Assembly: GCA_938050045.1 (NCBI GenBank)
Contig: CALLJS010000017.1
Location: forward strand, 186,001 to 250,000
Direction of reading: 5' to 3'
DNA: 64,000 nucleotides
From: an uncultured Sphingomonadaceae bacterium
GTDB lineage: Bacteria; Pseudomonadota; Alphaproteobacteria; Sphingomonadales; Sphingomonadaceae
Shown: positions 23,934 through 48,784 of the stretch, piece after piece
Layout of the letters: each line of letters starts with the position of its first letter
How positions within the stretch are numbered: position 1 is the first letter of the stretch
Program-made: the position numbers and the translations under genes
Notes under the pieces: generated by a model
Seen by the model: the letters and a program-made list of their open reading frames with translations, nothing else
What the model was told of the DNA's origin: nothing
Database searches by the model: none

Positions 23934-23973
23934 GCCCCTGTGGTGGAATTGGTAGACGCGCCGCACTCAAAAT
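23934..23973 (+). pseudogene. 5' half of a tRNA-Leu gene, cut in the anticodon loop
   Basis: GCCCCTG starts an acceptor stem, then come the TG at positions 8-9, the leucine-type D-arm, an anticodon 5' stem CCGCA (23961-23965) and the loop CTCAAAA with anticodon CAA at 23968-23970. After the loop only one base (T) could pair with the stem; the expected TGCGG is replaced by TTGAG and no variable arm, T-arm or CAGGGGC acceptor half follows. The gene therefore ends at the crossover point of the inserted element. The missing half is not in this window. It cannot make a tRNA by itself. Confidence 0.75.
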
Positions 23974-23978
23974 TGAGT
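23965..23978. other. Probable attachment-site core in the tRNA-Leu anticodon loop
   Basis: ACTCAA and TTGAGT form an inverted repeat around a 2-base centre AA, exactly where the tRNA sequence stops matching. Tyrosine integrases that use tRNA genes often cross over in the anticodon loop, and an integrase gene starts about 105 bp to the right. The partner site at the other end of the element is not visible in this window. Confidence 0.5.
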
Positions 23979-24083
23979 TCTACCTTCAAAAATTAGCCAA
24001 AAACCCTTTAATACCAACGGTTTGAGCAAGGACGAGACTTCCAAAAAGACTTACACATGTCTTACACATTTTGGAGTTTCGTT

Positions 24084-25370
24084 ATGACAGCTGAAAGTTA
24101 CGCTCTGATGGATGGCGCGCTTCACGTTTATCGGCGTGAGAATAGTCGCTTCTGGCAATGCTCAACCTATCTTGGCAGCCGCAATCACCGGCAGACAACC
24201 AAAGAGATGAACCTTGCTGCCGCTAAGGATTTTGCGCGCGACTGGTATATGGAAAAATGCGTAGAGGATCGCCAGCGCCGACGCGGCGGGTTTGCCTTGC
24301 TGGCCAACCCAGTCCCGGCACAAATGGTTGAGCCCTCACCGGTGACCGATGGTCGGCTACGCCGAACGCCAACTGGTCCCAGTTTCGAGGATGCCGCCAA
24401 AGCATTTCTCGATGAGTTCGAGGTTATCACGCAGGGCGAACGCAATGAGGGATATGTGGAATCGAAGGCTATCCATGTCCGCGTTCACCTGTTGCCATTC
24501 TTTGGCGATACAGCGCTTAAAGATATTAACGCGGGCAAAGTTCAGGACTATCGTGTTCACCGCCAGACATCCCGCGTCGATGCCAAAACCGGCAAGCCGA
24601 AGAAACCGGCACGCGCGACTTTGCATGGCGAGATCGTCACGCTCCGTCAGGTGTTGAAGACCGCCAACCGCAAGGGCTGGATTTCCGCAATTCCTGATAT
24701 GTCAGCGCCATATAAGACATCTGGCAAGCTGGAGCATCGCGCTTGGTTTTCACCCGAGGAATATAAACTGCTCTATGAGGCCACGCGTGAGCGGGCCAAA
24801 AACCCTCCCAAGCCGCGCTGGCGGGAGGTATGCGAGACTTTTCACGACTATGTTCTGTTCATGGGAAACACCGGACTTCGCCCCGACGAGTCGGCACGGA
24901 TTCAGCTGCGCGACGTCAAGATCGTGGATGACGAATCGACCGGAGAGCGAATATTAGAGATCGAGGTGCGTGGGAAGCGGGGTGTCGGTTTCTGCAAATC
25001 GATGCCCGGTGCAATTCTGCCCTTCGAGCGCGTTCGTGATCGCAAGGAGCTCAAACCGACTGACTCGATATTTGGGAAAACGCCGCGCGAATTGATGAAC
25101 ACTGTCCTAGACGAGCTTAATATGAAATTCGACCGCGATGGGCATGTCCGCACCTGCTACAGTCTGCGGCATACCTATATCTGCCTTCGACTGCTGGAAG
25201 GCGCGGATATTTATCAGGTCGCCAAGAACTGCCGGACCAGTGTCGAGATGATCGAGAAGTATTATGGACGGCATTTGAAGAACAACATCGATGCCTCGGC
25301 AGTCAATGTTCGCAGAGCGCGGCCAAAGCCAGTCGCTGCCTCAAAGAAGTCTATGAAGCCAAAGGCATAA
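24084..25370 (+). CDS. int: Tyrosine-type site-specific integrase
   Basis: Catalyses integration and excision of the element. The 428-residue protein has an N-terminal arm/core-binding part (residues about 100-200) and a C-terminal catalytic domain: first arginine in MGNTGLRPDES near residue 262, second box CYSLRHTY near residue 360 (the usual first histidine is Y), and the nucleophilic tyrosine in EKYYGRHL near residue 393. The ATG at 24084 is preferred over the ATG 27 bases upstream because GGAG lies 7 bases before it. It sits just inside the broken tRNA-Leu, the standard position for an ICE integrase. Confidence 0.92.
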   Translation: MTAESYALMDGALHVYRRENSRFWQCSTYLGSRNHRQTTKEMNLAAAKDFARDWYMEKCVEDRQRRRGGFALLANPVPAQMVEPSPVTDGRLRRTPTGPSFEDAAKAFLDEFEVITQGERNEGYVESKAIHVRVHLLPFFGDTALKDINAGKVQDYRVHRQTSRVDAKTGKPKKPARATLHGEIVTLRQVLKTANRKGWISAIPDMSAPYKTSGKLEHRAWFSPEEYKLLYEATRERAKNPPKPRWREVCETFHDYVLFMGNTGLRPDESARIQLRDVKIVDDESTGERILEIEVRGKRGVGFCKSMPGAILPFERVRDRKELKPTDSIFGKTPRELMNTVLDELNMKFDRDGHVRTCYSLRHTYICLRLLEGADIYQVAKNCRTSVEMIEKYYGRHLKNNIDASAVNVRRARPKPVAASKKSMKPKA

Positions 25371-25431
25371 TTTGCGTTCTTGATATTTTTCGTTGCGTCT
25401 CATGACGACGGCGTTATATGCCTCTCTCAAC

Positions 25432-25516
25432 GCGGGCGTGGTGGAATTGGTAGACGCGCGGGATTCAAAATCCCGTTCCGCAAGGAGTGTGGGTTCGATT
25501 CCCACCGCCCGCACCA
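25432..25516 (+). tRNA. Complete tRNA-Leu (anticodon CAA), element-borne
   Basis: An 85-nt class II tRNA with acceptor stem GCGGGCG/CGCCCGC, a leucine-type D-arm, anticodon stem CGGGA/TCCCG with loop TTCAAAA (anticodon CAA at 25466-25468), a variable arm, T-loop GGTTCGATTCC and an encoded 3' CCA. It begins 61 bp after the integrase stop and so lies inside the element. Its D-arm is nearly identical to the broken tRNA at 23934, but the acceptor and anticodon stems differ, so it is a different gene and not the other half of the same one. Confidence 0.95.
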
Positions 25517-25885: not shown

Positions 25886-28800
25886 TTGGCCGCGATAGAT
25901 CGCTTCTGCGACCTTGTTGAGCGATTAGGCCCCGAGGGAATTTCCCGTGGGGAGAATGATCTTAGTGCACGTCTAGCTCGATGCTTCGAGCAAATAGGGT
26001 TGCACACGATCATCGATACAAGCTCAGGATCAGACAACCGACGTCGTCCTGACATCGTGGGCTATATCGATGAAGGAACGTCCGATCTTGGCGGTTTTGG
26101 TGAACTTGTTGTCGAGTCAAAGAGGCCTTCCGAAGTACCCGGAGATTTGCTGGAAGCACTGCTCGGCACTTCTCTTTGGAGCGAAAAATTTGTTCCTTAT
26201 GTTAAGGCTCACCTGCCCAGCATTCGATATTTTTGCCTTACTACATTTGAGCATCATCTTTATGTCGAAATTACTCCCGAACTTCGGGCGCTGCTAACTG
26301 AGTTAGAGCCGACTGCAAGTCATTGTGAGGCCAGTGTTCGAGAAAGTTGCCAAGCCTTCAATTTGCTGGAGCGGAAGGATGAATGGATTGGCTGGCTCAC
26401 TTCGACGCTTTCTCCAGTCAATCTTGATCCTCCACTTTTTTCCGAAGCGGTTGATCTTTTCGCAGTAGAAACAGCCGAGGAACTCGAAGGTTTTGCTGAT
26501 CAACTCGCAACGTTGGTTGCAGGCGAAATTGGAACACCGGAGTCGCATTTCGCACTTGTCAATTCGGTTCGGATCAATGCCTCGACCCTAGAGGATTTAC
26601 CTACCGATGTTGCGGCGAGCCTTTCGATCTATGTTCTCGCCCAACATCCAGGGATGAGCGTGGAAGCGGGGCAAGAGTTCTTGGCCTCTAACCTCGAATC
26701 CGAACTCACGAATTTCGTTTCCGCGAGTGTTCAGTCACTCATAGGGCGGATGTTCGCGTTCAAGATGATTGAAGATTGCTTTTGCATCGACGTGGCGCCA
26801 CCGCTCATCGCTGAGGACCGGTATGTCTTTCATCATGACCGTTATGATGGTGCCGCAAGCTCAGATATTGTTGCCAGTTTCTTCGAAGCGGTGCGCATCT
26901 TAGAATCCGCATCGAGTCCTGCAATAAGCAATCTCTCTAAAACCGGCCGGTTTTATGACTGGATCGAGAGCCGAGTTGATCCAAATGCGTTTGAACGGGT
27001 TTTTCGAGCGTTTGCATCGCACAGTTTCGCTAGCCTTTCAGGCGATCTGCTTGGACGCTTTTTTGAGCACTATGCCCAACGTGTAGACAAAAGAAGGCGG
27101 CGGCGGCTCGGACAGTATTATACACCACCTTCAGTGGTGCAATTTATCTGGTCCGAAGCACTTGCTATCGCCGAGGATAGGGGCGTACTTCAAGACGTTC
27201 GAGTGCTCGATCCAGGTGTTGGGTCAGCTGCTTTTCTGACTGAGGGTGCTCGACGGATGTCCGATGCGGGCGTGACGCGATTCTGGGAAAGGCTCGTCGG
27301 CTTCGATATCGACCCACAAGTCATAGGCGTTGCCTATGTGAATCTGTTTCTTGCGGTTTTAAGTGGACTTGAGCGGCAAGATGCGGAGCAAGTTGAAGAG
27401 CTTCATTTGTACCCGACGGATGCTCTAGAGCCAACAAGTTCTGCTCCATTGACTGCATATTTGCCGTTGCTCACCGCTGAGCCTTTACGGCAGTATCTTG
27501 CCGGACAAATTGACCTATCGGCTAGTGTTAAAGCAGCCAGCGCGTATGATCTTGTAATCGGCAACCCTCCCTATCGGAATAACAGCACGAGAACTTTGCA
27601 GCAGGTAGCTGAAACATTTCCTCGATTGTTACAGACGTCAAGAGCGAACGCCCGTTTGCGGGAGCGAAATATTCGTGATGACTATGCGTGGTTCTTTGCG
27701 GCCGCCGACTACTACATCCAGCAGGACGGGTTAATTGGGTTTGTCGTGTCGAGCTCATTCTGTGCGGCGGACAGTTATCGGTATTTTCGTCTAGACCTTC
27801 TCCGAAACTACGCAATTCGCAGACTGGTTCATCTCGGAACCGGCATATTTGACGACGTAGGTCCACGAACTTCATTTGTAGTGGTTTTGCTGGAAAAGCG
27901 CGCAAGCTCAATTGCTACTGAGAACATTGAAAGCCATGAGTTTTTTGACCTGCGTGCATTTGATGAGCCAGAGGCGCGGCTTGCCTTATTGAATGAAGCG
28001 GCTGTTGGAAACTGGGTAAACTGGCCCGATGCTGAACTCGTCACTCCAACTGAAACTCACAATTTCCGGTTACACCCGATTGACCCGCTTGTACCCGCAG
28101 TCAAATCTGCCGGGTTGCCGCTCTTCGCCGGTCGTGACGAGCAATCGATCTTCCTTAAAAAATGGCCCGGCTTGATAACCGCACTCGATAACCTTTGGCG
28201 AGGGCAAGAGCGTCAGGAACTGGAAAGCCGAATCCAAGGATTCTTTTCGTGCGCTCATGATCGGTCAGATCGTGCAGAGACGAACATTGAGAGCTTTCTC
28301 AACGCAGAAGGGCTGGAGGATAAGGATGCGGATCGGGTTCGCGTTTTTTTGCTGCAAGCTAGAGACGCAAACCTCCAATATGACGCGAACAAGATCAAGC
28401 GGATCGTGACGGGAACGTCCCCCAATACCGATTGCTGGTATCCCTCGCCCAACATTACGTCGTGGCTTTATTATGAACCAAGCCTTCGGGTTCCGCGGAA
28501 TATCAATGAGGGACGGCCGGTCGGCTATGGAACTATGACTCAATGGGGAGAGCCGGATGCTCACGCAACTACTCCGAAATTGATATTTACTTCAGGCAGT
28601 TCTTCAAAAAACGGCTTGAAAGCGTATGTGGTGAATGACGAATGGTATGTAAAACTTCACGGAGGCACGAGGCAGCAATTCAATTACACGGTGTGTGAGA
28701 ACCCATTAAAGGGTGCGCAGTTGAGCGGTCTGCCTAATAATCTATCGCCGCTCGCATCAGATTTTTACGAGACCATGCAATCCAATGGGTGGAACGAAGA

Positions 28801-29194
28801 GGATTTTCTTCTTTACATCGCATCTTTTTATAATTCTCCGATCGCCAATGAGTTTCTTGACGGAGGTGGCGGAAAAATGATGCACATACCTTTCGCACCA
28901 CCGGCTCTCGCTAGTGATATAGCAAACGCAGCGAAGAAAGCTCGATTGCTTGTCATAGCAAGTCATCTCTTATCGGAATCGGATACGATCAACGCAGCTG
29001 ACTCAGAATACGATTTTACCCAACTTGTCGATGACGGCTTAATACTGGCCGAAGAGTCTGGCGGCGGGCGGTTCCGATCAAGTCTTCGTTTCCTGTCGCA
29101 TTCAACCTCTCTGGAAGACCTTGCTAGTGAGCGCGTAAGTCTGGAAGCACATTTGAATGATCTCGTTCACGAGGCAATCGGCTTGGATGGTTGA
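25886..29194 (+). CDS. Single-polypeptide restriction-modification enzyme (Eco57I/type IIG-like), N6-adenine methyltransferase
   Basis: A 1102-residue fusion that should both methylate and cut DNA. The N-terminal nuclease has a PD-(D/E)xK pattern: PD at residues 55-56 and ESK at 77-79 (RRRPDIVGY ... LVVESKRP). The methyltransferase follows: GQYYTPPSVVQ near residue 410, SAM-binding DPGVGSAAF near residue 441, GFDIDPQ, and catalytic NPPY at about residue 560. The remaining 500 residues include YYIQQDGLIGFVVSSSF and a target-recognition-like part with WYPSPNITSWLYYEP. The start is TTG with AAAGAG upstream; a stop codon lies two codons before it, so no earlier start is possible in frame. Its site specificity cannot be predicted. 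It is flanked by 76-bp direct repeats. Confidence 0.85.
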   Translation: MAAIDRFCDLVERLGPEGISRGENDLSARLARCFEQIGLHTIIDTSSGSDNRRRPDIVGYIDEGTSDLGGFGELVVESKRPSEVPGDLLEALLGTSLWSEKFVPYVKAHLPSIRYFCLTTFEHHLYVEITPELRALLTELEPTASHCEASVRESCQAFNLLERKDEWIGWLTSTLSPVNLDPPLFSEAVDLFAVETAEELEGFADQLATLVAGEIGTPESHFALVNSVRINASTLEDLPTDVAASLSIYVLAQHPGMSVEAGQEFLASNLESELTNFVSASVQSLIGRMFAFKMIEDCFCIDVAPPLIAEDRYVFHHDRYDGAASSDIVASFFEAVRILESASSPAISNLSKTGRFYDWIESRVDPNAFERVFRAFASHSFASLSGDLLGRFFEHYAQRVDKRRRRRLGQYYTPPSVVQFIWSEALAIAEDRGVLQDVRVLDPGVGSAAFLTEGARRMSDAGVTRFWERLVGFDIDPQVIGVAYVNLFLAVLSGLERQDAEQVEELHLYPTDALEPTSSAPLTAYLPLLTAEPLRQYLAGQIDLSASVKAASAYDLVIGNPPYRNNSTRTLQQVAETFPRLLQTSRANARLRERNIRDDYAWFFAAADYYIQQDGLIGFVVSSSFCAADSYRYFRLDLLRNYAIRRLVHLGTGIFDDVGPRTSFVVVLLEKRASSIATENIESHEFFDLRAFDEPEARLALLNEAAVGNWVNWPDAELVTPTETHNFRLHPIDPLVPAVKSAGLPLFAGRDEQSIFLKKWPGLITALDNLWRGQERQELESRIQGFFSCAHDRSDRAETNIESFLNAEGLEDKDADRVRVFLLQARDANLQYDANKIKRIVTGTSPNTDCWYPSPNITSWLYYEPSLRVPRNINEGRPVGYGTMTQWGEPDAHATTPKLIFTSGSSSKNGLKAYVVNDEWYVKLHGGTRQQFNYTVCENPLKGAQLSGLPNNLSPLASDFYETMQSNGWNEEDFLLYIASFYNSPIANEFLDGGGGKMMHIPFAPPALASDIANAAKKARLLVIASHLLSESDTINAADSEYDFTQLVDDGLILAEESGGGRFRSSLRFLSHSTSLEDLASERVSLEAHLNDLVHEAIGLDG

Positions 29195-29229
29195 TAGCCC
29201 AGACCAAGCCTAACAGCTTGTTCCGCGAA

Positions 29230-29305
29230 CCGCTTTCGCGAAATGACAATCGAAGGTTATTTTTTTGGTAGCCCACAGGATCCCGGACGGGATCCGGCCA
29301 TCGCC
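29230..29305. repeat. Right copy of the 76-bp direct repeat
   Basis: Same orientation and same length as 25603-25678, 58 of 76 bases matching. It lies 35 bp after the restriction gene stop and 54 bp before the AAA ATPase stop. The pair brackets the restriction gene and nothing else. Confidence 0.8.
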
Positions 29306-29359
29306 TCGAACTACTGATGCGATATGGTGTTTCAGTTTGACGAAAATTCCATCCGTCCC

Positions 29360-31987
29360 TTAAGGTTGAGCTTGTTGTTTGCGCTTTTCCTTGATGGCTT
29401 CGGCCCAGTCTTTGAGCGATTGAATATCAGAAAGCAATTCATCTGGGACAGGAACTTCCTGATCCATTCCCATTGATGAATCATGCGCTTCGGTAAAATC
29501 GCAGCATTTCTTAAATCCAGCGTCAAATGCGTCAATGTCGCCATTATCAAGAACCGTGACCGCTCGAAGGTTTTTCGTGTCCACATATTCACGTTGCCGC
29601 AGAATGACATTGGCAAACACAATCGTTTCAATGCCGCGCTCCCAAGTGGAGCGAAGACGCCCGTAAATTTGACGGACCTCTCTTGCGTAGGCTTCTTCAT
29701 CGTGTGCCTCGAACAATTTTTTTGCCGCGTGAACTTCTTTTTCCAATGTATCTAGGCGTTGTCCCAGCTTGCCAGCACGCCAAGGTAAACCTTCTGAAAA
29801 CACGCCAACGCGGGTGCCAGCGCGATCCAAGGTGGCAAATTTGGTGGGTACACTCAGTTGACCGGCCCGATTGTCCAGGTCGTTCAAAAATACAAGATCA
29901 TGCGTGAAGACAATGACCTGCCGTATCTGGGCTTCTTCAGCCAGCCGCTCAGCGACTTTGCGCCGCCAGCGATGGTCGAGCGATGACACTGGGTCATCAA
30001 AAACGAGCGCCGAAGTGTGCGTAGCTGTGGCAAGCTCAGTCAAATAGGCAGCTAGAGCAACACAGGTCTGCTCTCCTTCACTTAAAACCTCGTGGACTTT
30101 TGCGTCAGCGTTGGCAAAAAATTTGATTGCATATTGGGGCGATCCTGTCTGTCCGCCAGAGCGTTCCATTTTCACCCGGACGCGGCTGTCTGCCAGTTTG
30201 ATAATCTCTTCCTGAAAGCGATCCTGCATTTTTGGAGTGACCAGTTCATCGGCAATCTGATTGCCAAGCGTGGTTATCGAGCGGGTGTTTGTTTCTTTCA
30301 GACATGCTTCGATGATATTCAATTGCTGCAATCTTGCGATTTCCGTTTCAGCAACAGCTTTTAGTTTCCCGCCATTTTTCCGATCTTGCAGTTCGCCATG
30401 TTCTGACAGAAGCGCTTCACGCTCTTCCGACTTTGTATCTGCCGACAAACTCTCTGCGTAGCTGACAATTGCGTCCGCTTCTGCATCTATTTTGGCAGCA
30501 GGAATGACCGGAAGTTCCACATGGTCATTTTCGACGTCATCGTCAAAATTTTTCAATAGTTGAAAACGCCGCAGGCGAGCAGCTGCCATGAATTCGAGCA
30601 CTTTCCGCCCCAAACTCGGATCGCGTGATTTAAGAACTTTTCGGGCAGCTGACACCGAGCCAATTTCAATGCGCAAGTCTTGGAGTGCTTTTAACGCCGC
30701 GTCATATGCTCTTTTCGCGGCAACGGCTTTGCCTTCGGTTTCCTGCTTAATGAACGTCTCGAACCCGTTGAGACGAACCGACGTTTCTGCATCAATTTCC
30801 TGATGGCACAACACACATAACTCGCCTTCCGCAGGAGGAAATATCTGCGTCCGCTTTTCCAGTGAATCTGAATATTTTCGAGCGCTGTCCCAAAGTTCTT
30901 TCCAAACCGGTTGGCCTACGCCATCCAGTTCCAATTCTCCAAAGGCCGTCTCCGCAGCCAAATCAGCGGCTTCCCGTTTCGTTTCGGCTTCGCCCTTCTT
31001 GTCATTCAAAGCTATAAACGCCGCAGGGGATACGATGTCGTGTATAGCGGACATCGTTTTGGTCAATTGACGTATCGTTTGTGCATTGCGTTTTTGTTCC
31101 GCCGCGATGGCAGCAGGATCTTGCGCCAAGTCGCCAATCAGCTTTCCGAGACGAGTTTCTTCTTCCGGTGTCAGAGGTGTATCAAAATCGACTTTCGACA
31201 AATCAGTTTCACGTTTGAGAGCATTGAGGACTTTACCGACCGGAGACAATCCAGACCAGATCGGCGCATCAAAAACTGGATCGCGCAAGTCCTCCAGCCG
31301 CTGTTTTTCGGTTGTCAGCTTAGCTTTGATGTCGATACATAGCTTTGCTAGGTCGTCAGGGATATCTAATCCGAAAGGCCGGAACCAGACTTCGTTTTTC
31401 TTGCTAATATGTTCTGCGCCGCAATCCTTGTCGAATACGGTAATAGCAGAAAGTAGCGGCTCTGGTGTTTCGGCGTCTTTCCACTCCAGCGGCGTTTTGC
31501 TGCCGTCGGCGCGCTGGACAATTAACTTTGCTTTTGCAGGCACTGCTGCGCCTCCGCCTAGCATATCTGGCATGACCTCGCCGGGGAAACGGGCGCGGCA
31601 AGCTTTTTTGAGCACCCTAGCATAACCCGATTTACCCGTTCCATTCTTTCCGTAGACGACCGTAAGACCACCGGTTTCAAATTGCATATCTTGGTCCGCG
31701 GCAAGCTGATTGACGCCGACTATACCCGACAGGGAAGCCAGCCGGATCGATTCTCCAGCGCCGGGATCGGCAGGTAAATTTTCTTTGGTCAGTGGTTTCG
31801 CTTCGGTGGAAACTGTGTCGTCACCATGCGCTTTGCGAGCCAGAGCAATTAACTCCTGAACGCCCGTTTCATCGGGCAGGCCGCTATTTACAATCCGCCG
31901 TAAACCGTCCTTTTGCCAATCCGGTTTGCCTGATGACCACTCCAGAATGGTATTTAGTACGCTTTTATTGTTTGATTCTTCGCTCAT
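29360..31987 (-). CDS. AAA_13-type ATPase with zinc-hook-like motif (PrrC/RloC-like architecture)
   Basis: An 875-residue ABC/SMC-like ATPase of the AAA_13 group, which includes the anticodon nucleases PrrC and RloC. Walker A is GKNGTGKS at 113-120; the signature LSEGEQ is at 635-640; Walker B LVFDDPVSSLD is at 661-671; the switch histidine is in VFTHD (696). Between the two halves is a mostly helical arm with CVLC at 391-394, like a zinc hook. The C-terminal region has R779-x3-E783 and H835, the spacing type of the R-E-H triad in PrrC/RloC nucleases, but that assignment is inference. It converges on the restriction enzyme gene. Defence role is likely from family and context; target is unknown. 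Confidence 0.8.
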   Translation of the reverse strand: MSEESNNKSVLNTILEWSSGKPDWQKDGLRRIVNSGLPDETGVQELIALARKAHGDDTVSTEAKPLTKENLPADPGAGESIRLASLSGIVGVNQLAADQDMQFETGGLTVVYGKNGTGKSGYARVLKKACRARFPGEVMPDMLGGGAAVPAKAKLIVQRADGSKTPLEWKDAETPEPLLSAITVFDKDCGAEHISKKNEVWFRPFGLDIPDDLAKLCIDIKAKLTTEKQRLEDLRDPVFDAPIWSGLSPVGKVLNALKRETDLSKVDFDTPLTPEEETRLGKLIGDLAQDPAAIAAEQKRNAQTIRQLTKTMSAIHDIVSPAAFIALNDKKGEAETKREAADLAAETAFGELELDGVGQPVWKELWDSARKYSDSLEKRTQIFPPAEGELCVLCHQEIDAETSVRLNGFETFIKQETEGKAVAAKRAYDAALKALQDLRIEIGSVSAARKVLKSRDPSLGRKVLEFMAAARLRRFQLLKNFDDDVENDHVELPVIPAAKIDAEADAIVSYAESLSADTKSEEREALLSEHGELQDRKNGGKLKAVAETEIARLQQLNIIEACLKETNTRSITTLGNQIADELVTPKMQDRFQEEIIKLADSRVRVKMERSGGQTGSPQYAIKFFANADAKVHEVLSEGEQTCVALAAYLTELATATHTSALVFDDPVSSLDHRWRRKVAERLAEEAQIRQVIVFTHDLVFLNDLDNRAGQLSVPTKFATLDRAGTRVGVFSEGLPWRAGKLGQRLDTLEKEVHAAKKLFEAHDEEAYAREVRQIYGRLRSTWERGIETIVFANVILRQREYVDTKNLRAVTVLDNGDIDAFDAGFKKCCDFTEAHDSSMGMDQEVPVPDELLSDIQSLKDWAEAIKEKRKQQAQP

Positions 31988-33837: not shown

Positions 33838-34884
33838 TCATGCTACACCGTTGAGTGTATGTTGGAGCTCTGCAATTTCCTCAATGATCGCATTGAAAGG
33901 CGGCGGATCGCCAAAGATCATCGTGTCCATCGCCTTATAATCCTGCCGAAGATCGTCAACCATTCCCCCTTCGGGGCAGAGTGCAAATGTTGGTGGCTGC
34001 GCCGAAGCAAGATCAAATGGTGCGCGGTTGAAGAACATGCGGGCGTGCGCGACGCAGTCCTCGCCCAACGGTCGGTTTTCGGTTGCCGATTGTCCCGTCT
34101 CCGACTGGATCAGTCGGTATAAATCATAATAGTGTCGCGAAATACGCTGGCCGTTGCCGCGCAGCTGGCCTCGGATTTCATACCACCGGCGCAGCCCGTG
34201 CAGGATCACCACCTTGTCCCAGAAGGTGCGTTCGGCATCGACAATGGTGACATTGGGAACGACAAGATCGATCTCAGGAAGATCGGCATCAACATAAGGC
34301 ATTATCGACCGGTTGGAGTTCGGATCGAGTGCCGATTTAGCGCCCGATTCAATTTTCACTGATTTGGCGATATAGGCGTCGGTCGGTGTTATGCTGGGAT
34401 AGATGACCAGCAAGGTTTGCCGGTCGGCAGGGTCCACCTCTATCCGGAGCGCATTTTGCTCCAGACCATTTCGGGTGCAGGCCTCTTCTGAAATCGCTGT
34501 AAGGCGCTGCATCAACGGGCCATTAATATATGCTTCGCAAGCGGCTTTGATTGCATCGAGCGCTTTCTGGCGCTTTTTGCCGCTCAACCCGGCCAGTTCA
34601 TCAATCGAAGCGGGAACGCCGAGATCATCTCGAAAAACTGTGACGTCGATGTCCTCTGAAAAGCGCTGTATCAATCCGAACCCCTTGGAAAGCGAGGTGC
34701 CACCTTTGAACAGTAGGCGCGGACCCTCGGTGATGCCGTTGAACAGGGCATCGAGCGTCCAGCAGACCCAGAAGTCCTTTTCGACATTCTGCGGGGTTGT
34801 TCCCATGCGTTGAGCCGTCGTGGTGAACAGACCTTGGCGCGTATCAATATCGGCCCGCAAGATGTCGTCAAAAGCTGGATTCAT
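33838..34884 (-). CDS. abiEii: AbiEii toxin (nucleotidyltransferase)
   Basis: Toxin of an AbiE type IV toxin-antitoxin and abortive-infection pair; it is a DNA polymerase beta-like nucleotidyltransferase. The family signature is LLFKGGTSLSKGFGLIQRFSEDIDVTV, with the GG-S loop and the acidic D-x-D near residues 60-85. Later blocks include ERTFWDKVVILHGL and RHYYDLYRL. At 348 residues it is full length. Its ATG overlaps the antitoxin stop by 4 bp, the usual coupled layout. Expression should fall under the antitoxin's control at the operators near 35,535-35,609. Confidence 0.92.
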   Translation of the reverse strand: MNPAFDDILRADIDTRQGLFTTTAQRMGTTPQNVEKDFWVCWTLDALFNGITEGPRLLFKGGTSLSKGFGLIQRFSEDIDVTVFRDDLGVPASIDELAGLSGKKRQKALDAIKAACEAYINGPLMQRLTAISEEACTRNGLEQNALRIEVDPADRQTLLVIYPSITPTDAYIAKSVKIESGAKSALDPNSNRSIMPYVDADLPEIDLVVPNVTIVDAERTFWDKVVILHGLRRWYEIRGQLRGNGQRISRHYYDLYRLIQSETGQSATENRPLGEDCVAHARMFFNRAPFDLASAQPPTFALCPEGGMVDDLRQDYKAMDTMIFGDPPPFNAIIEEIAELQHTLNGVA

Positions 34885-35534
34885 GTGGATGGCGTTTCAT
34901 TGGAAGCAAGCGGACGGAGCAATTCCTGCATCCAAGCTGGAAGGGCGGGCATACCATCGATCAGATCAGCACGTAGCTTTGCGCCATGCTTTGGGTCGTT
35001 GAGCAGGATAGAAAGTCTGTTCTGCCAACTTGGCATATCGTCGCCTGGCATCGTGTCGCGCAGCCAGTGCAGGGCTTGGACGATGCGCATCGCGGGACGG
35101 CCTGCCCAGAAAAGTTTGCTTGGAGCTGTCTGTTTGAAATAAATGGTAAGATTTCCGAGGCTGATCTTCTTGGAGCGCGCTTCGCTATGGACGATGATCT
35201 TGGCTGGCACCGCATTGGTAAAGCCGAGATCGTTAGCCGCCGTCATCCCGTCAACCAACACCCGTATTTGATCACGCCGCACGACAGCATCGATAACGGC
35301 CTTTGGATTTGGTGGGTTATCCTGCTGTGTAAGTTTGTTGGTTCGAGGTTTATCATAAAGGCCCCAATCGATCCTGCGCAAGTCTTCCGAACGGACAAGG
35401 CGTTGCAGGGTTTTATCGACGACATCACGGCTGCCGAGGTCAAGAAAATCGCTCGGTGTCCAAACAGTGATCGTTGCACCGCTTTCGATGCGAGCAAGAA
35501 TTTTTTCTTTCAGACTGGTGGATGGCTTATTCAT
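34881..35534 (-). CDS. abiEi: AbiEi-family antitoxin (DUF6088-like), autorepressor
   Basis: A 217-residue antitoxin. Residues 1-75 form a winged helix of the AbiEi_4/DUF6088 type (SLKEKILARIESGATITVWTPSDFLDLGSRDVVDKTLQRLVRSEDLRRIDWGLYDKP), and the C-terminal part (IIVHSEARSKKISLGNLTIYFKQTAPSKLFW) is the usual antitoxin domain. The ATG at 35534 is chosen because upstream in-frame ATGs would translate the two operator palindromes into an implausible repeated peptide (CYIFRT twice). No clear ribosome site precedes this ATG; a promoter inside the operator would start the transcript close to it, so the message may be nearly leaderless. Confidence 0.88.
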   Translation of the reverse strand: MNKPSTSLKEKILARIESGATITVWTPSDFLDLGSRDVVDKTLQRLVRSEDLRRIDWGLYDKPRTNKLTQQDNPPNPKAVIDAVVRRDQIRVLVDGMTAANDLGFTNAVPAKIIVHSEARSKKISLGNLTIYFKQTAPSKLFWAGRPAMRIVQALHWLRDTMPGDDMPSWQNRLSILLNDPKHGAKLRADLIDGMPALPAWMQELLRPLASNETPST

Positions 35535-35609
35535 TGTCCGAAATATGTAGCATGATTTCGGACAATGTCGAGTTAAAAGTGTCCGAAATATGTAGCATAA
35601 TTTCGGACA
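35535..35609 (-). promoter_or_regulatory. Two 30-bp palindromic operators of the abiE operon
   Basis: Each site has arms TGTCCGAAAT and ATTTCGGACA around a 10-base centre: 35535-35564 and 35580-35609. The two 30-bp sites differ at one base only and are 45 bp apart. The first ends exactly where the antitoxin ATG begins. A candidate minus-strand promoter has TCGACA as -35 and ACATAT inside the first operator as -10, with a 17-base spacer, so bound AbiEi would block it. Confidence 0.8.
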
Positions 35610-35617
35610 TATTTTGC

Positions 35618-37024
35618 TCAACTAGCCTTATCAGAACAAGCCGCCCATTTGGGAAGGCGCCCAAGATCGTCTAATTCGGCTCGCACTAAACCATCCAGCA
35701 CCTCCGGGAAAAGCCGAGCCATCGCCCGCCAAACCGGATGCTCACTATCGATTTGCGCTTCAGTTTCTTGGGCCTCTTTGAACATTCGTCTGAATGATAG
35801 CCGTTCTGCAAGATCGGCCAGCGCAGTCAAACGAACAAAGCTATCTATGAGATTGGCACAATGTTTGAAATCGCCGCTACTCAGTTTGCTATTGAGCATG
35901 GCAAGAACCGCGCCTTCACCTTTATATTTTGTAATATAGACATTTTCCGTGCCGGTGTCGGCGCTGTGCGCGACTGAGCAAAGGATCGCAAAGAGCATGG
36001 CTAGATGCGCTTGGCCTCTGTCGGAGCGTGATGCCCAAAACTCCTCCTTCCACGCATCAAGTCCTGGCACCCTCAATTGCAATGAATCCCAGGCCGGTGC
36101 AAATGTTGTGCTGTAGAATGGGGATTTAGGCTTGTCATTTTGCGCTTGCTGAAAGGCCTTCCACCATCGCGATCGTTCTACTTTGCTTCTTGCTACTAAC
36201 AAATCGCTCCGCCGGTCCTCGACAAAAGCAGACCGGCCATAGCCGGTTTGCAGATCATCCAGTGTTACAAGCCGGGGTTCTAGCCAACCGCCTTTTCCGT
36301 TTTCCAAATAACACTTTAGAACCAGCGTGGCGCGCTCGATTGAAGCCGCTTGCGCCGCATCATCGAACAGGAAGGCGTTGCCTCGCTGCATCGTTATGAC
36401 ATCATGGAAGCCTTGCGGCAGCGGGTCTTCGAGAACATTGAAAATCCATACCAGTCTGACACCTTCGTTATCATAGTGGATATGGCGTGCAGCAATCTCT
36501 GGCGCAAAGGGTTTGGAAAGCTGAACTTCGAGCGCAAACTTACCTAATTCTCCAAATTCGAGATACACATCGGGCCAGCGTCCACGCTTGTGGATCTCGG
36601 GCCGCAAATAAGTGTCCACCGCCGAATGTGTGCAGCGGTGATCTGCGTTAGCTAGCTCCTCGATTGTTACGCATAATTGACGGTGGAGCGCCGATTCCTG
36701 ATGCCCCTGATATTGCGCGGCGCGGGCGTCATCGGGCCGCAAAGTCCGGCCCTCGTACCAAGGGCATTCTTGAGACCCTTCCGGAAAATGAACGAACATT
36801 GGCACATGGTCATGCTTTGTCGCCTGCGAGCGAATGAATACACCAGCCTCGCAAAGCCTGCACCGGGCCAATGGCACTGATGGGTCAGATTGTCGGCGCA
36901 GATTGATCTGCGAGCGCAAATGTTCCCAGCTTGCCCTCGGCATAGCCATGAGCGCCTCGATTGTTACCGGGCCTCGCGGCAGTTCAAAGTCGGCAATCCG
37001 GATAGTACGTTGATGATCTGCCAT
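35618..37024 (-). CDS. CoiA-like nuclease-fold protein (DUF6035-like) with N-terminal zinc finger
   Basis: A 468-residue protein. Near the N-terminus CRLC (C55, C58) and a later ECPWYEG suggest a zinc ribbon, as in CoiA-type competence proteins. The nuclease core reads GRWPDVYLEFGELGKFALEVQLS: PD at 151-152 and E166-x-Q168, the PD-(D/E)xK variant typical of CoiA, followed by AARHIHYDNEGVRLVWIF. The last 300 residues are helical and unassigned. It starts 7 bp after a small winged-helix-like gene on the same strand, and the two form a pair just upstream of the AbiE operators. In a defence island a nucleic-acid-cutting role is plausible but unproven. Confidence 0.7.
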   Translation of the reverse strand: MADHQRTIRIADFELPRGPVTIEALMAMPRASWEHLRSQINLRRQSDPSVPLARCRLCEAGVFIRSQATKHDHVPMFVHFPEGSQECPWYEGRTLRPDDARAAQYQGHQESALHRQLCVTIEELANADHRCTHSAVDTYLRPEIHKRGRWPDVYLEFGELGKFALEVQLSKPFAPEIAARHIHYDNEGVRLVWIFNVLEDPLPQGFHDVITMQRGNAFLFDDAAQAASIERATLVLKCYLENGKGGWLEPRLVTLDDLQTGYGRSAFVEDRRSDLLVARSKVERSRWWKAFQQAQNDKPKSPFYSTTFAPAWDSLQLRVPGLDAWKEEFWASRSDRGQAHLAMLFAILCSVAHSADTGTENVYITKYKGEGAVLAMLNSKLSSGDFKHCANLIDSFVRLTALADLAERLSFRRMFKEAQETEAQIDSEHPVWRAMARLFPEVLDGLVRAELDDLGRLPKWAACSDKAS

Positions 37025-37031
37025 GATCTAA

Positions 37032-37346
37032 TCAATCGGGCAGTTCTGGTTTGGCGATCCAGTCCAGTGATTCAATGCCGGAAGCAATTTCTCCGCCAAG
37101 TTGCCGGAGGTGGATGACACGGAAATTGTCGATTTTCTCGCTGCGAACCAAAGCCTCTTTTTCGAGACGATCCAGTAAATCTTGAAGGTCACGACGAGAG
37201 ATTCCAAGGCCTATGCTGCCGAGCCAGCTGGTTAGAATTTGGCTATTTGTGCTTCTTTCGTGATTCAATATGCGCAGAATTTCACGGGCTTGGTGGGCGA
37301 TACGGATAGCTTCAAATTGATCAGGTCGGTTGGACAAATTGCTCAT
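37032..37346 (-). CDS. Small winged-helix-like protein paired with the CoiA-like gene
   Basis: A 104-residue protein I cannot name with certainty. Residues 15-80 have the helix pattern of a winged helix (AREILRILNHERSTNSQILTSWLGSIGLGISRRDLQDLLDRLEKEALVRSEKI) and resemble small phage proteins of the VpaChn25_0724 type. It ends with an acidic tail. It lies 7 bp before the CoiA-like gene, and about 15 bp from a 106-bp repeat copy. It might be the regulator or specificity partner of the CoiA-like protein. Confidence 0.6.
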   Translation of the reverse strand: MSNLSNRPDQFEAIRIAHQAREILRILNHERSTNSQILTSWLGSIGLGISRRDLQDLLDRLEKEALVRSEKIDNFRVIHLRQLGGEIASGIESLDWIAKPELPD

Positions 37347-37356
37347 CGGAATATCT

Positions 37357-37462
37357 TAGCTTGTTCACCGACGGAGGTAAAAACATTTCAAGAACATTGG
37401 TTGAATTTTGTTTGGGGGGGGTGGGAAGGCCTTCCCCTGAGCCGCTACGCTGTCTCCGGCTA
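37357..37462. repeat. Left copy of about 105-bp direct repeat flanking mobile mystery A/B
   Basis: It begins TAGCTTGTTCACCGACGGAG and ends at the stop codon of the mobile mystery B gene; the partner is 38700-38803. Shared blocks are TAGCTTGTTCAC, GAGGTA, GAACATTG, GGTTTGGGG-like, CCTTCCCCTGAGCCG and CGCTGTCTCC. It includes the perfect palindrome GGGAAGGCCTTCCC (37423-37436). Confidence 0.8.
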
Positions 37463-38053
37463 ACTCCGCGCAAATTTCAACAGTGGTTCGATGTCCTCGC
37501 GGTCCGCTGCCTGTAGCGCTGTGATATAGGCTTTGCAGGTTGCGCTGGCATCGGTCAGGCTTGTTCGCCCCCATGTAAATGGGTGCTGGCCTAGTTGTAT
37601 TGTGAGATAGTCGCCTGCCATGCGGGAATGCCGTCCATTGCCGTTGGGGAAGGGGTGGATGGAGACAAGCTGGTGGCTGAACCGGATGGCGATTTCGTCG
37701 GGCGGGTAGGTTTCATTCTCTACCCAGAACCGGACATTATCGACGAGCTGGCGCATTTCGGTCGGGATCCGGTAGGCCTCAATCCCGATATTTCTGGGGC
37801 TCTGGCGGTATTTGCCCGCCCATTTCCAGACCTGCCCGAACATCTGTTTGTGCAGTCCCTTGAGCAGCGCGTCATCGAGTATGTCCGCCTTGCGCTTGCG
37901 CCCATACCAGCGGCTTGCCTCGGTGATGTTGATCTGCTCGGCTTCGTTGAGCTCGCTGCGCAGCGTTATATAGGTCGGGATCAGCTGTTCACGCTCCTCC
38001 TCTGTTAAAGGCGTGTTGGCTTCATCATCACCATCAAACAGCGGATCGGTCAT
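37460..38053 (-). CDS. Mobile mystery protein B (Fic/DOC-fold)
   Basis: A 197-residue Fic-domain protein of the mobile mystery B family (TIGR02613). The Fic motif HPFPNGNGRH, near residue 133, has the catalytic histidine and the phosphate-binding loop used for AMP transfer or related reactions. The N-terminal RWYGRKRKADILDD and FKQMFGQVWKWAGKYR-like LHKQMFGQVWKWAGKYRQ pattern is typical. Its ATG overlaps the stop of mobile mystery A by 4 bp. The family is known for always travelling with protein A on mobile DNA; its biochemical target is not known. A toxin-antitoxin-like role is plausible. Confidence 0.92.
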   Translation of the reverse strand: MTDPLFDGDDEANTPLTEEEREQLIPTYITLRSELNEAEQINITEASRWYGRKRKADILDDALLKGLHKQMFGQVWKWAGKYRQSPRNIGIEAYRIPTEMRQLVDNVRFWVENETYPPDEIAIRFSHQLVSIHPFPNGNGRHSRMAGDYLTIQLGQHPFTWGRTSLTDASATCKAYITALQAADREDIEPLLKFARS

Positions 38054-38517
38054 TCATCATCCCATAGATGGCTAATCGGTTCTGATAGAATGTCCCTGGT
38101 CATGCGTTCGAGCTCTTCGCGTGATTGCTCTTTGGTCATTGACTGATTTTCCAGCAGCATGCCATGCGATATGGTCCCGATCTGGTCATGGGCTTTGCTG
38201 CGCGCACGATCCTCGACGATCTGGTCGAGCGGCTTATTGGGGACAAACGCATAAACCAGCGTGCAATCCAGCGCTTCAGCCGCTTCTCTCAGCGTTTTTA
38301 GCGTGGCCGAGCCATGCGCTTCGGCCCGTTCAAGCGGGGTAATACGCGACTGGGAAACGCCCAGTCTATTCGCAAGCTGACGGCTTGACATGCCCAGCGC
38401 ATCGCGAATGGCGCGTATCCAGCCGCCCACTGGTCTGGTAAGGTTTGTATCACGCAGAAAGCCGAGGCGCTTGTCGAGATTTTTGCGGGCTAATCCGGCT
38501 CTTTTTGCATTTGACAT
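38050..38517 (-). CDS. Mobile mystery protein A (Xre-type HTH)
   Basis: A 155-residue regulator with an Xre helix-turn-helix at residues about 35-90 (MSSRQLANRLGVSQSRITPLERAEAHGSATLKTL) followed by LDCTLVYAFVPNKPLDQIV, the mobile mystery A signature. The ATG at 38517 is used because GGAG lies about 7 bases before it; an earlier ATG nine codons upstream has no such site. It is first in the A-B pair and probably represses it from the inverted repeats immediately upstream, analogous to an antitoxin. Confidence 0.92.
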   Translation of the reverse strand: MSNAKRAGLARKNLDKRLGFLRDTNLTRPVGGWIRAIRDALGMSSRQLANRLGVSQSRITPLERAEAHGSATLKTLREAAEALDCTLVYAFVPNKPLDQIVEDRARSKAHDQIGTISHGMLLENQSMTKEQSREELERMTRDILSEPISHLWDDE

Positions 38518-38551
38518 ATCTGATCTCCGGCGTTTTCGTAACACTCATAGA

Positions 38552-47192: not shown

Positions 47193-47747
47193 ATGGCGAC
47201 AAATACCGATCTAAAACCTGCGATGCTTAGCATTAGGCTAGATGCTGGAGCGCTATCTGCGCTCGACAGCTTGGCAGTGGGGCGCGGCGGTCGAAGCGCG
47301 ATTTTGCGGCAAATGATTGAACAGGTGTTGGAGGAGAATAGTGGCCGTCCTCTGTTAGAACGCCGAGAAGGAATAGCGCATAATCGTGTCTCGCTACGCT
47401 TCACCGAAGCCGAGATTTCGGTAATCGAATTTCGTGCATCGCAGCGTTCAACCAATCGGGCGGAGTGGATCAAGGCATTAGTGCGCCGCCACCTCTCTTT
47501 GAAATCTCGCGTCGATGACGGTCTGCTTAACGAGCTTGCGCCAATCAGGATGCAATTGCTCCGCATTGGCCGCAATCTCAATCAGGCGATGAAGGCTGCC
47601 AATTTGCGGATGATGGATGATGGCGACAAGAAAATCGAAAACGACCTTCGACGAATCGCTGATATGCGGATGGAAATTTCCGAACAGATAGCAGCCGTCG
47701 GTGATGCCATGCATGGCGATGTGGGCTACTGGAAGGTTGCTGACTAA
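47193..47747 (+). CDS. mobC: MobC-like relaxosome accessory protein
   Basis: A 184-residue DNA-binding accessory protein. An N-terminal ribbon-helix-helix-like part (PAMLSIRLDAGALSALDSLAVGRGGRSAILRQMI) is followed by a second segment with MobC features (VSLRFTEAEISVIEFRASQRSTNRAEWIKALVRR and LAPIRMQLLRIGRNLNQAM). It should bind near nic and load the relaxase. The ATG at 47193 is preferred; an earlier in-frame ATG lies inside the oriT region. Its stop and the relaxase start share one base (TAATG). Confidence 0.85.
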   Translation: MATNTDLKPAMLSIRLDAGALSALDSLAVGRGGRSAILRQMIEQVLEENSGRPLLERREGIAHNRVSLRFTEAEISVIEFRASQRSTNRAEWIKALVRRHLSLKSRVDDGLLNELAPIRMQLLRIGRNLNQAMKAANLRMMDDGDKKIENDLRRIADMRMEISEQIAAVGDAMHGDVGYWKVAD

Positions 47748-48784
47748 TGGGTCTGGAATCGGCCTTATGGGAAGCGACGCGACCCGCATACCGGGTGCGC
47801 TATATCCATGACCCCAACGGGTCACTCCATATCCCGCTTTATGGAAGCTACGGAGCTGCCAATGGAAAGACGGCGAGGGCAAAGCTGGCGCGGATTGTGC
47901 GGGGTGCCCCAGAAGTGCTGGTCAAAGTCACTGGCCGTCAGCGCGGCGGTAGCCATGTCAAAGCCCATCTCGATTATATCGGGCGCAAAGGGATCGTCGA
48001 CATTGAGAGTCGCGATGGAGAGATCCTGACCTCAAAGGAAGATGTTGCCGAGCGTGCAGCAGAGTGGAGTGACACGCTGCAATGGCGGTCGCGGCCAACC
48101 GTATCATCGGTGTCATTGGTGTTCTCGATGCCAGCAGGAACCGACCCCGAAAAGGTGTTGGGAGCTGTCCGTGCGCTTGCCCACAGTGAGCTGAGCGACA
48201 ATCATGATTATGTCCTAGCATTGCACACAGATACCCCGCGTCCGCATGTCCATCTGACTGTGCAGGCCGAGGGCCTGGATCGCATTAGATTTAATCCGCG
48301 CCCTGCTCAGCTCAGCCGTTTTCGTGAGCGATTTGCCCATGAATTACGCGCGCGCGGTGTTGCCGCCGAAGCAACGCCGAGACGGGCGCGAGGTCGCGGT
48401 ATTGCTGGATCGAGTATGGCACTTGTCAAATTGCGCGCCCGATTAGCAAGTGGGGCAATTCCGGCAATGACAGATGCAGACCGGCGCACTAACGAACAGG
48501 CGGTTGCTGTTGCGCGCGGCCAATCAAATCTTCCACCATTTATCGCAAAAGGTAAAACCCGCTGGCAGCAGATACGCCATTCTTATGAGCAAGCTGCTGC
48601 TGCGCTCGGAGCAACCGGAAAATCCGAAGACCAGACGCTAGCAGAGGATGTTCGCAAATTCCTTGATAAGCATCCCGATATGAATGCCACGCCGGAAATT
48701 TTTGCCGCGCATCATGCCCGGAATCTTGGCATTGAGCGTAAGAAACCAGAACAGTCGCGTGAGCCTTCACCCAGACGATTTTAA
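47747..48784 (+). CDS. MOBP-type relaxase (VirD2/TraI-like)
   Basis: Nicks oriT and pilots the transferred strand. The 345-residue protein has the N-terminal relaxase domain: GGSHVKAHLDYIGRKG near residue 67 and the three-histidine motif HTDTPRPHVHLTV near residue 160, which binds the divalent metal. The catalytic tyrosine is probably the Y in HLDYIGRKG. The C-terminal part is short and basic. It is translationally coupled to mobC and converges with the LPD7-like gene by 4 bp. Confidence 0.85.
   Translation: MGLESALWEATRPAYRVRYIHDPNGSLHIPLYGSYGAANGKTARAKLARIVRGAPEVLVKVTGRQRGGSHVKAHLDYIGRKGIVDIESRDGEILTSKEDVAERAAEWSDTLQWRSRPTVSSVSLVFSMPAGTDPEKVLGAVRALAHSELSDNHDYVLALHTDTPRPHVHLTVQAEGLDRIRFNPRPAQLSRFRERFAHELRARGVAAEATPRRARGRGIAGSSMALVKLRARLASGAIPAMTDADRRTNEQAVAVARGQSNLPPFIAKGKTRWQQIRHSYEQAAAALGATGKSEDQTLAEDVRKFLDKHPDMNATPEIFAAHHARNLGIERKKPEQSREPSPRRF

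Follow-up and report, generated by a model that had tools for sequence, protein, structure and literature searches.

An integrated element of ~47 kb in the genome of an uncultured Sphingomonadaceae bacterium very probably splits a host tRNA-Leu(CAA) gene and supplies a matching replacement tRNA, which across the clade of its integrase is often altered inside the attachment core. The left end of this element lies in the window, i.e. the whole 64,000 nucleotide stretch of DNA analysed in the present study, and comprises the following features:

23934..23973, plus strand, 5′ half of the host tRNA-Leu(CAA) gene, GCCCCTGTGGTGGAATTGGTAGACGCGCCGCACTCAAAAT, which forms a complete tRNA together with the 3′ half at the other end
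23964..23973, plus strand, core CACTCAAAAT at the left end of the element (attL), with a second copy beyond the window at L043:6945-6954 (window-equivalent 70945-70954)
24051..24068, plus strand, two TTACACA repeats, possible arm-type sites of the integrase
24057..25370, plus strand, tyrosine recombinase (integrase) of 437 aa, its class taken from predicted-fold matches
25393..25420, plus strand, promoter-like TTGCGT-16-TATATG upstream of the cargo tRNA, from which the latter would be expressed
25432..25516, plus strand, complete cargo tRNA-Leu(CAA) with the loop TTCAAAA (T32), the sole tRNA found in the window

Direct reading of the window confirmed the initial annotation, in which a host tRNA-Leu 5′ half was described as cut at the anticodon loop and followed by an integrase and an intact tRNA-Leu(CAA). 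The sequence departs from a tRNA after position 23973, and 61 bp separate the stop codon of the integrase (ORF 24057-25370) from the complete tRNA (25432-25516). The host 3′ half, CACTCAAAAT GCGGTTCTTAACGGAGTGCCCGTTCGAGTCGGGCCAGGGGCACCA, anticipated at the other end of the element, is present on the same contig outside the window (L043:6945-6999, window-equivalent 70945-70999), where it begins with the same core, and the starts of the two core copies are 46,981 bp apart. No tRNA half lies directly upstream of the far core copy, which leaves the gene unrestored at both junctions, and aragorn detected no complete tRNA at the far end (L043), i.e. neither the restored gene of a classical tRNA-restoring island nor the one that had been held incompatible with the annotation. 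A core of 10 bp inside a tRNA gene that is rebuilt at neither junction is the arrangement of tRNA-dependent lysogeny. When the two flanks were joined in silico, aragorn read one complete tRNA-Leu(CAA), which shares 83 of 85 bases with the intact gene in a relative of the same genus (L090). Genus relatives also have an intact tRNA at the corresponding place, the left flank (1.5 kb) aligning beside it in 10/11 genus loci tested with 67-76% identity; the right flank (1.5 kb beyond the far junction) aligned in 0/11. Four more TTACACA copies occur at the far end (L043:6849-6886), placing six of the eight copies in the window and L043 at the two element ends. The 10-bp core used by the tyrosine recombinase is too short to rebuild the gene, and the sequence shows the host tRNA split, with the 5′ half on the left and the 3′ half on the right.

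That an assembly error or a mixed bin produced this layout is the least probable of the alternatives considered here. The genome (2.42 Mb, 99.28% complete) is in 28 contigs with an estimated contamination of 1.37%, but a single contig spans both junctions, and the two halves pair with each other. Moreover, the layout recurs with an orphan 3′ half in records labelled as strains, for example in Pontixanthobacter rizhaonensis RZ02, both ends being on one contig, and is also found in Parasphingorhabdus flavimaris SW-151, with the ends on two contigs. Near the right end of the Pontixanthobacter element there is a decayed cargo-type tRNA (L323:4726), as if left by an older element.

Further genes in the window bear on the type of element:

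47747..48784, plus strand, relaxase (MobA/VirD2-like), PF03432
49574..51409, minus strand, type IV coupling protein, PF02534
51381..52391, minus strand, VirB11-type ATPase, PF00437
57523..59925, minus strand, VirB4-type ATPase, PF03135

Based on this content of relaxase, coupling protein, VirB4 and VirB11 in addition to the integrase, the 47-kb element is a predicted integrative and conjugative element. It also holds ArsC, SBF and FMN_red family genes, which we read as putative arsenic resistance. An AbiE-type pair, a weak CoiA-like match, a Fic protein and an HTH regulator are located within the element at 33838-38544 and are candidates for real maintenance or defence modules. At 25886-31987 an Eco57I/N6-type DNA methylase adjoins an 875-aa AAA protein, which matches the PADLOC candidate family PDC-S06 at 2e-203. 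When the AAA_13 protein (29360-31987) was considered as a candidate anticodon nuclease, PDC-S06 was its best PADLOC family and PrrC a weak partial match.

Comparisons of the integrase with Pfam and PDB sequences gave no match, and NCBIfam gave no meaningful one, a threshold of 0.01 yielding only two stray matches across 14 members. The predicted fold matches Tn1549 Int, XerA, XerH, Cre and lambda Int, with Tn1549 Int as the best structural match (E 5e-9, TM about 0.3). On the strength of these matches, and with a model of moderate quality (pLDDT 69, pTM 0.49), the protein is predicted to be a tyrosine recombinase.

The tRNA complement of the genome supports the annotated proposal that the element disrupts its target gene and supplies a substitute. 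Of 39 tRNA matches, aragorn typed all but one (C16:27748), which at 72 nt is too short for a Leu tRNA, and the Leu tRNAs comprise UAA, UAG and GAG plus the cargo CAA. A Leu(CAA) 5′-half pattern searched over the genome matched the broken and the cargo copy only; no second intact Leu(CAA) besides the cargo tRNA and no intact GCCCCTG-type tRNA were found in this genome, as the annotated model had expected of the gene count. Since the cargo tRNA is the sole intact Leu(CAA) found, the host would rely on it for as long as the element stays integrated. Six host genes to the left of the element use UUG more than any other Leu codon (54/200); this codon may also be read by the Leu(UAA) tRNA. The initial annotation had further suggested an addiction-like form of maintenance, and this part holds only to a degree. 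Imprecise deletion of the element, or decay of the cargo tRNA, would indeed be costly. Precise excision, in turn, would rejoin the two halves into a whole host gene, so that the host would pay no price for losing the element correctly. Dependence would come into play solely in the two former cases, imprecise deletion and cargo decay, and the relation between host and element is better described as compensation with conditional dependence, which the term addiction fits only partly.

The integrase was present in 22 of the 298 genomes of the family at E 1e-60, its own genome included, and a pattern scan using one genome per species returned 509 integrase relatives, of which the best 80 were examined. 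Most integrases of this clade are preceded by a tRNA 5′ half that is broken within the anticodon loop and are followed by an intact tRNA. From 104 loci we removed 12 duplicates sharing the same last 200 residues, and target or cargo was not visible in 26 of the remaining 92, leaving 66 with both. Target and cargo have the same anticodon in 64 of these 66 pairs, namely 35 Leu(CAA), 20 Leu(UAA), six Ser(UGA) and three Ser(CGA). Two disagreements were machine-called; by our reading one of them (L152) reflects the mis-splicing of a Leu(UAA) tRNA by aragorn, and in the other (L143) the broken half reads TTGAAA. The gap between integrase stop and cargo tRNA is mostly 10-100 nt, about 60 being typical, with six larger values, and a TTG-spacer-TATA sequence was seen by eye upstream of many cargo tRNAs. 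This recurring order of broken half, integrase and same-anticodon tRNA in related loci cannot be attributed to chance. In an integrase tree of 85 rows, which left out rows of <330 residues as well as L160, L162 and L163, the labels of target and cargo each change 12 times and do so together among the 65 rows with both parts, with no mismatch after L143 (target) and L152 (cargo) had been relabelled Leu(UAA) by eye before mapping. Independent pairs on supported branches agree in 7/7 cases (p 0.016).

These joint changes bear on the reading that the element is an ordinary tRNA-site element whose restoring half has decayed, the intact tRNA being an unrelated passenger. Many elements do restore their tRNA (PMC4383910), as do three tRNA-Lys relatives in the present set, which have an intact tRNA ahead of the integrase and lack a Leu or Ser cargo tRNA. 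However, missing restoration and matching cargo recur throughout the clade, in 64/66 pairs and over 12 joint changes, making a decayed ordinary element very improbable. Several loci depart from the common layout. Leu(UAG) cargo tRNAs, two in all, come from a Planctomycetaceae and a Verrucomicrobia MAG and have no visible tRNA half upstream, and the four loci without a tRNA half before the core (L104, L065, L121 and L151) may be off-target insertions. At L107 the sequence before the core resembles, by eye, the right end of an element, which would fit a circular or tandem form. The two tRNA halves have mismatched stems in G363, and the stem bases of L117 / L180 read CCCCA vs TCGAG, as if the bases 5′ of the loop had come from the element.

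Far ends and gene counts in the relatives are in line with a split target and its replacement. An orphan 3′ half follows the core in 11 of 13 further distinct genomes with GCCCCTG-type targets, and no complete tRNA occurs at these far ends. Six of the 3′ halves share contig and strand with the 5′ half and are correctly ordered, at distances of 7-73 kb; four are on a different contig, and one, an exception (G359), shares the contig but is in the wrong order. Of 28 genomes with a Leu(CAA) element, 24 have exactly two pattern matches, broken and cargo. The others comprise a third copy that is decayed (G355), an extra, third copy that is intact (G359), a cargo tRNA that is present though missed by the pattern (G371) and a broken copy found alone (G364). 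Aragorn found no intact uninterrupted Leu(UAA) among 28 uninterrupted matches in 25 Leu(UAA)-element genomes, two of the matches being right-hand junctions by eye, and the intron-bearing cargo therefore looks like the sole Leu(UAA) gene there. Where no cargo lies near the integrase (12 genomes), a displaced, second intact Leu(CAA) shares the contig and strand in 10, at a distance of 8-22 kb in seven of them and of about 1.4 kb in three; G408 has a reverse-strand Leu(CAA) copy behind the integrase, and a second Leu(CAA) was not found in G398 (Tahibacter). All six Ser(UGA)-element genomes combine a broken copy with a cargo copy, and none yielded an intact Ser(UGA) other than on an element. As an exception in its anticodon, G791 has a second broken Ser(UGA) followed by family integrase sequence and then a Ser(CGA) tRNA. 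Two broken Leu(UAA) 5′ halves occur 235 bp apart at L256 and L263 (G226:C8).

The same counts can be set against the view that the main role of the cargo tRNA is to escape anticodon nucleases or other defences that cut tRNAs, the loop change serving evasion and the broken target being a side effect. Loop mutations reportedly feature in the title of a 2023 eLife paper. The element has candidate defence genes, including the one with the weak partial match to PrrC, and a role of this kind has been discussed for phage tRNAs (PMC10865867). Evasion nevertheless predicts neither the joint anticodon change of cargo and target nor a cargo tRNA that is the sole intact copy, and we regard it as improbable, if less so than a decayed ordinary element.

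In a replacement that follows its target across the clade, the altered core would most likely shield the rescue gene from the element's own integrase. A replacement with the loop of the target could recombine with the element's own ends, and we infer that T32, or an intron, in the replacement protects it from self-integration. The 35 Leu(CAA) pairs have C32 in 34 targets and T32 in 29 cargo tRNAs, C32 target and T32 cargo occurring together in 29 (counts that ignore relatedness), and each of the 25 Leu(UAA) cargo tRNAs called, counting L152, contains an intron that sits in the anticodon loop, within the core. Covariance matches support a group I type for these introns, as judged from eight intron sources of which two scored above and six below the Rfam cut-off; an earlier Rfam search gave no match in 11 sources, mostly loci with displaced copies and no cargo near the integrase. 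We consider the chances about even that the integrase of the element cannot see its replacement tRNA, due to a group I intron in the core of Leu(UAA) or a single base of the crossover region in Leu(CAA). Loop-based self-protection is not universal, since five Leu(CAA) pairs share the loop base (L124, L128, L129, L130 and L171), one is reversed and the Ser cargo loops are unaltered relative to their targets, and a universal position-32 rule was rejected on these grounds. In the reversed case (L053 / L326) the target has T32 and the cargo C32, and the 5′ half of the target looks like a cargo tRNA from the other elements.

Alternatively, the altered loop base and the intron may be inherited accidents of the donor tRNAs, unrelated to self-protection, a reading to which we give somewhat less than an even chance. 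It is favoured by native Leu(CAA) genes, 10 of 27 of which have T32 (the other 17 C32), by the pairs without a loop difference, and by the fact that the Fisher tests on position 32 ignore relatedness. Group I introns also occur in other tRNAs far from a family integrase. A survey of the class gave group I intron matches in 30/385 genomes, and the 30 loci fetched include nine Leu(UAA), of which four adjoin a family integrase (2/4 above the Rfam cut-off). None of the 21 non-Leu(UAA) loci adjoins one, and the idea that tRNA group I introns in general are cargo of these elements was rejected. Six intron-bearing Leu tRNAs had no family integrase in the roughly 10 kb flanking them on each side. Intron-bearing Leu(UAA) tRNAs resembling element cargo, with no family integrase within about 10 kb, were observed at L295, L298 and L303. 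Inherited accidents are less readily reconciled with the opposed bases at position 32 of targets (C32 in 34/35) and cargo (T32 in 29/35), with introns in 25/25 Leu(UAA) cargo tRNAs vs Leu(UAA) introns in 9/385 genomes of the class, and with an intron position inside the core.

The principle of self-supplied replacement has already been published for phages: tRNA-dependent lysogeny was demonstrated experimentally in mycobacteriophages (mBio 2024, PMC10865867), with the actinobacteriophages Fionnbharth and Gaia as examples. As in the phages described there, we find a tyrosine integrase, a short core in a tRNA gene (8-17 bp in the phages), no reconstruction and a tRNA of the same isotype aboard; Gaia likewise uses tRNA-Leu-CAA, with an 8-bp core and a tRNA downstream of Int. 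Unlike these temperate phages of Actinobacteria, the present case concerns a conjugative element of a sphingomonad, in its clade the integrase and the cargo are mostly no more than about 100 nt apart, the tRNAs are class II with intron or loop-base differences, and the integrase clade has no match at 1e-5 in 50,697 phage records. Weaker relatives of the integrase occur in 24 plasmid records. The element thus appears to work like tRNA-dependent lysogeny but is not a phage case on this evidence, given the predicted conjugation genes. The term group I intron does not occur in the mycobacteriophage study (PMC10865867). Prophages of Sinorhizobium meliloti similar to phage Lo5R7ANS also inactivate a tRNA-Leu(UAG) and carry a tRNA-Leu(UAG), although the evidence there is two prophage cases rather than a clade (PMC11476347), and Lactobacillus johnsonii prophage Lj965 has an unreconstructed tRNA and a cognate tRNA aboard but is a prophage of a Firmicute (cited in PMC10865867). 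Prophages without tRNA-dependent lysogeny have been reported as well (PMC12429752). Classical tRNA-site genomic islands (Islander, PMC4383910) share the tyrosine integrase at a tRNA gene and the direct-repeat ends, whereas they restore the tRNA from the element, which the element described here does not. An intron interrupting an attachment site in a tRNA gene recalls the proposal of Randau and Soll that tRNA introns block attachment sites in archaea (described in PMC3293823), which concerns archaeal host genes, in contrast to the element's own replacement gene in bacteria. Searches of the open PubMed Central literature, judged mostly from article listings, brought up no conjugative element that is described as tRNA-dependent in this way and no paper that connects an integrase with intron-bearing replacement tRNAs. 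New here are the conjugative element, a separate target-switching integrase clade and replacements altered inside the attachment core.

These findings carry tRNA-dependent integration beyond phages, to a conjugative element and to a broad integrase clade (509 relatives, best 80 examined), in which target and replacement tRNA switch together. They also offer a concrete and testable reason for introns in some bacterial tRNA genes. If the integrase indeed cannot see its replacement, self-splicing introns would act as shields of a rescue gene, which would partly explain the scattered introns in proteobacterial tRNA-Leu(UAA) genes. Finally, it appears that certain hosts rely on a mobile element for a tRNA that is unique in their genome.
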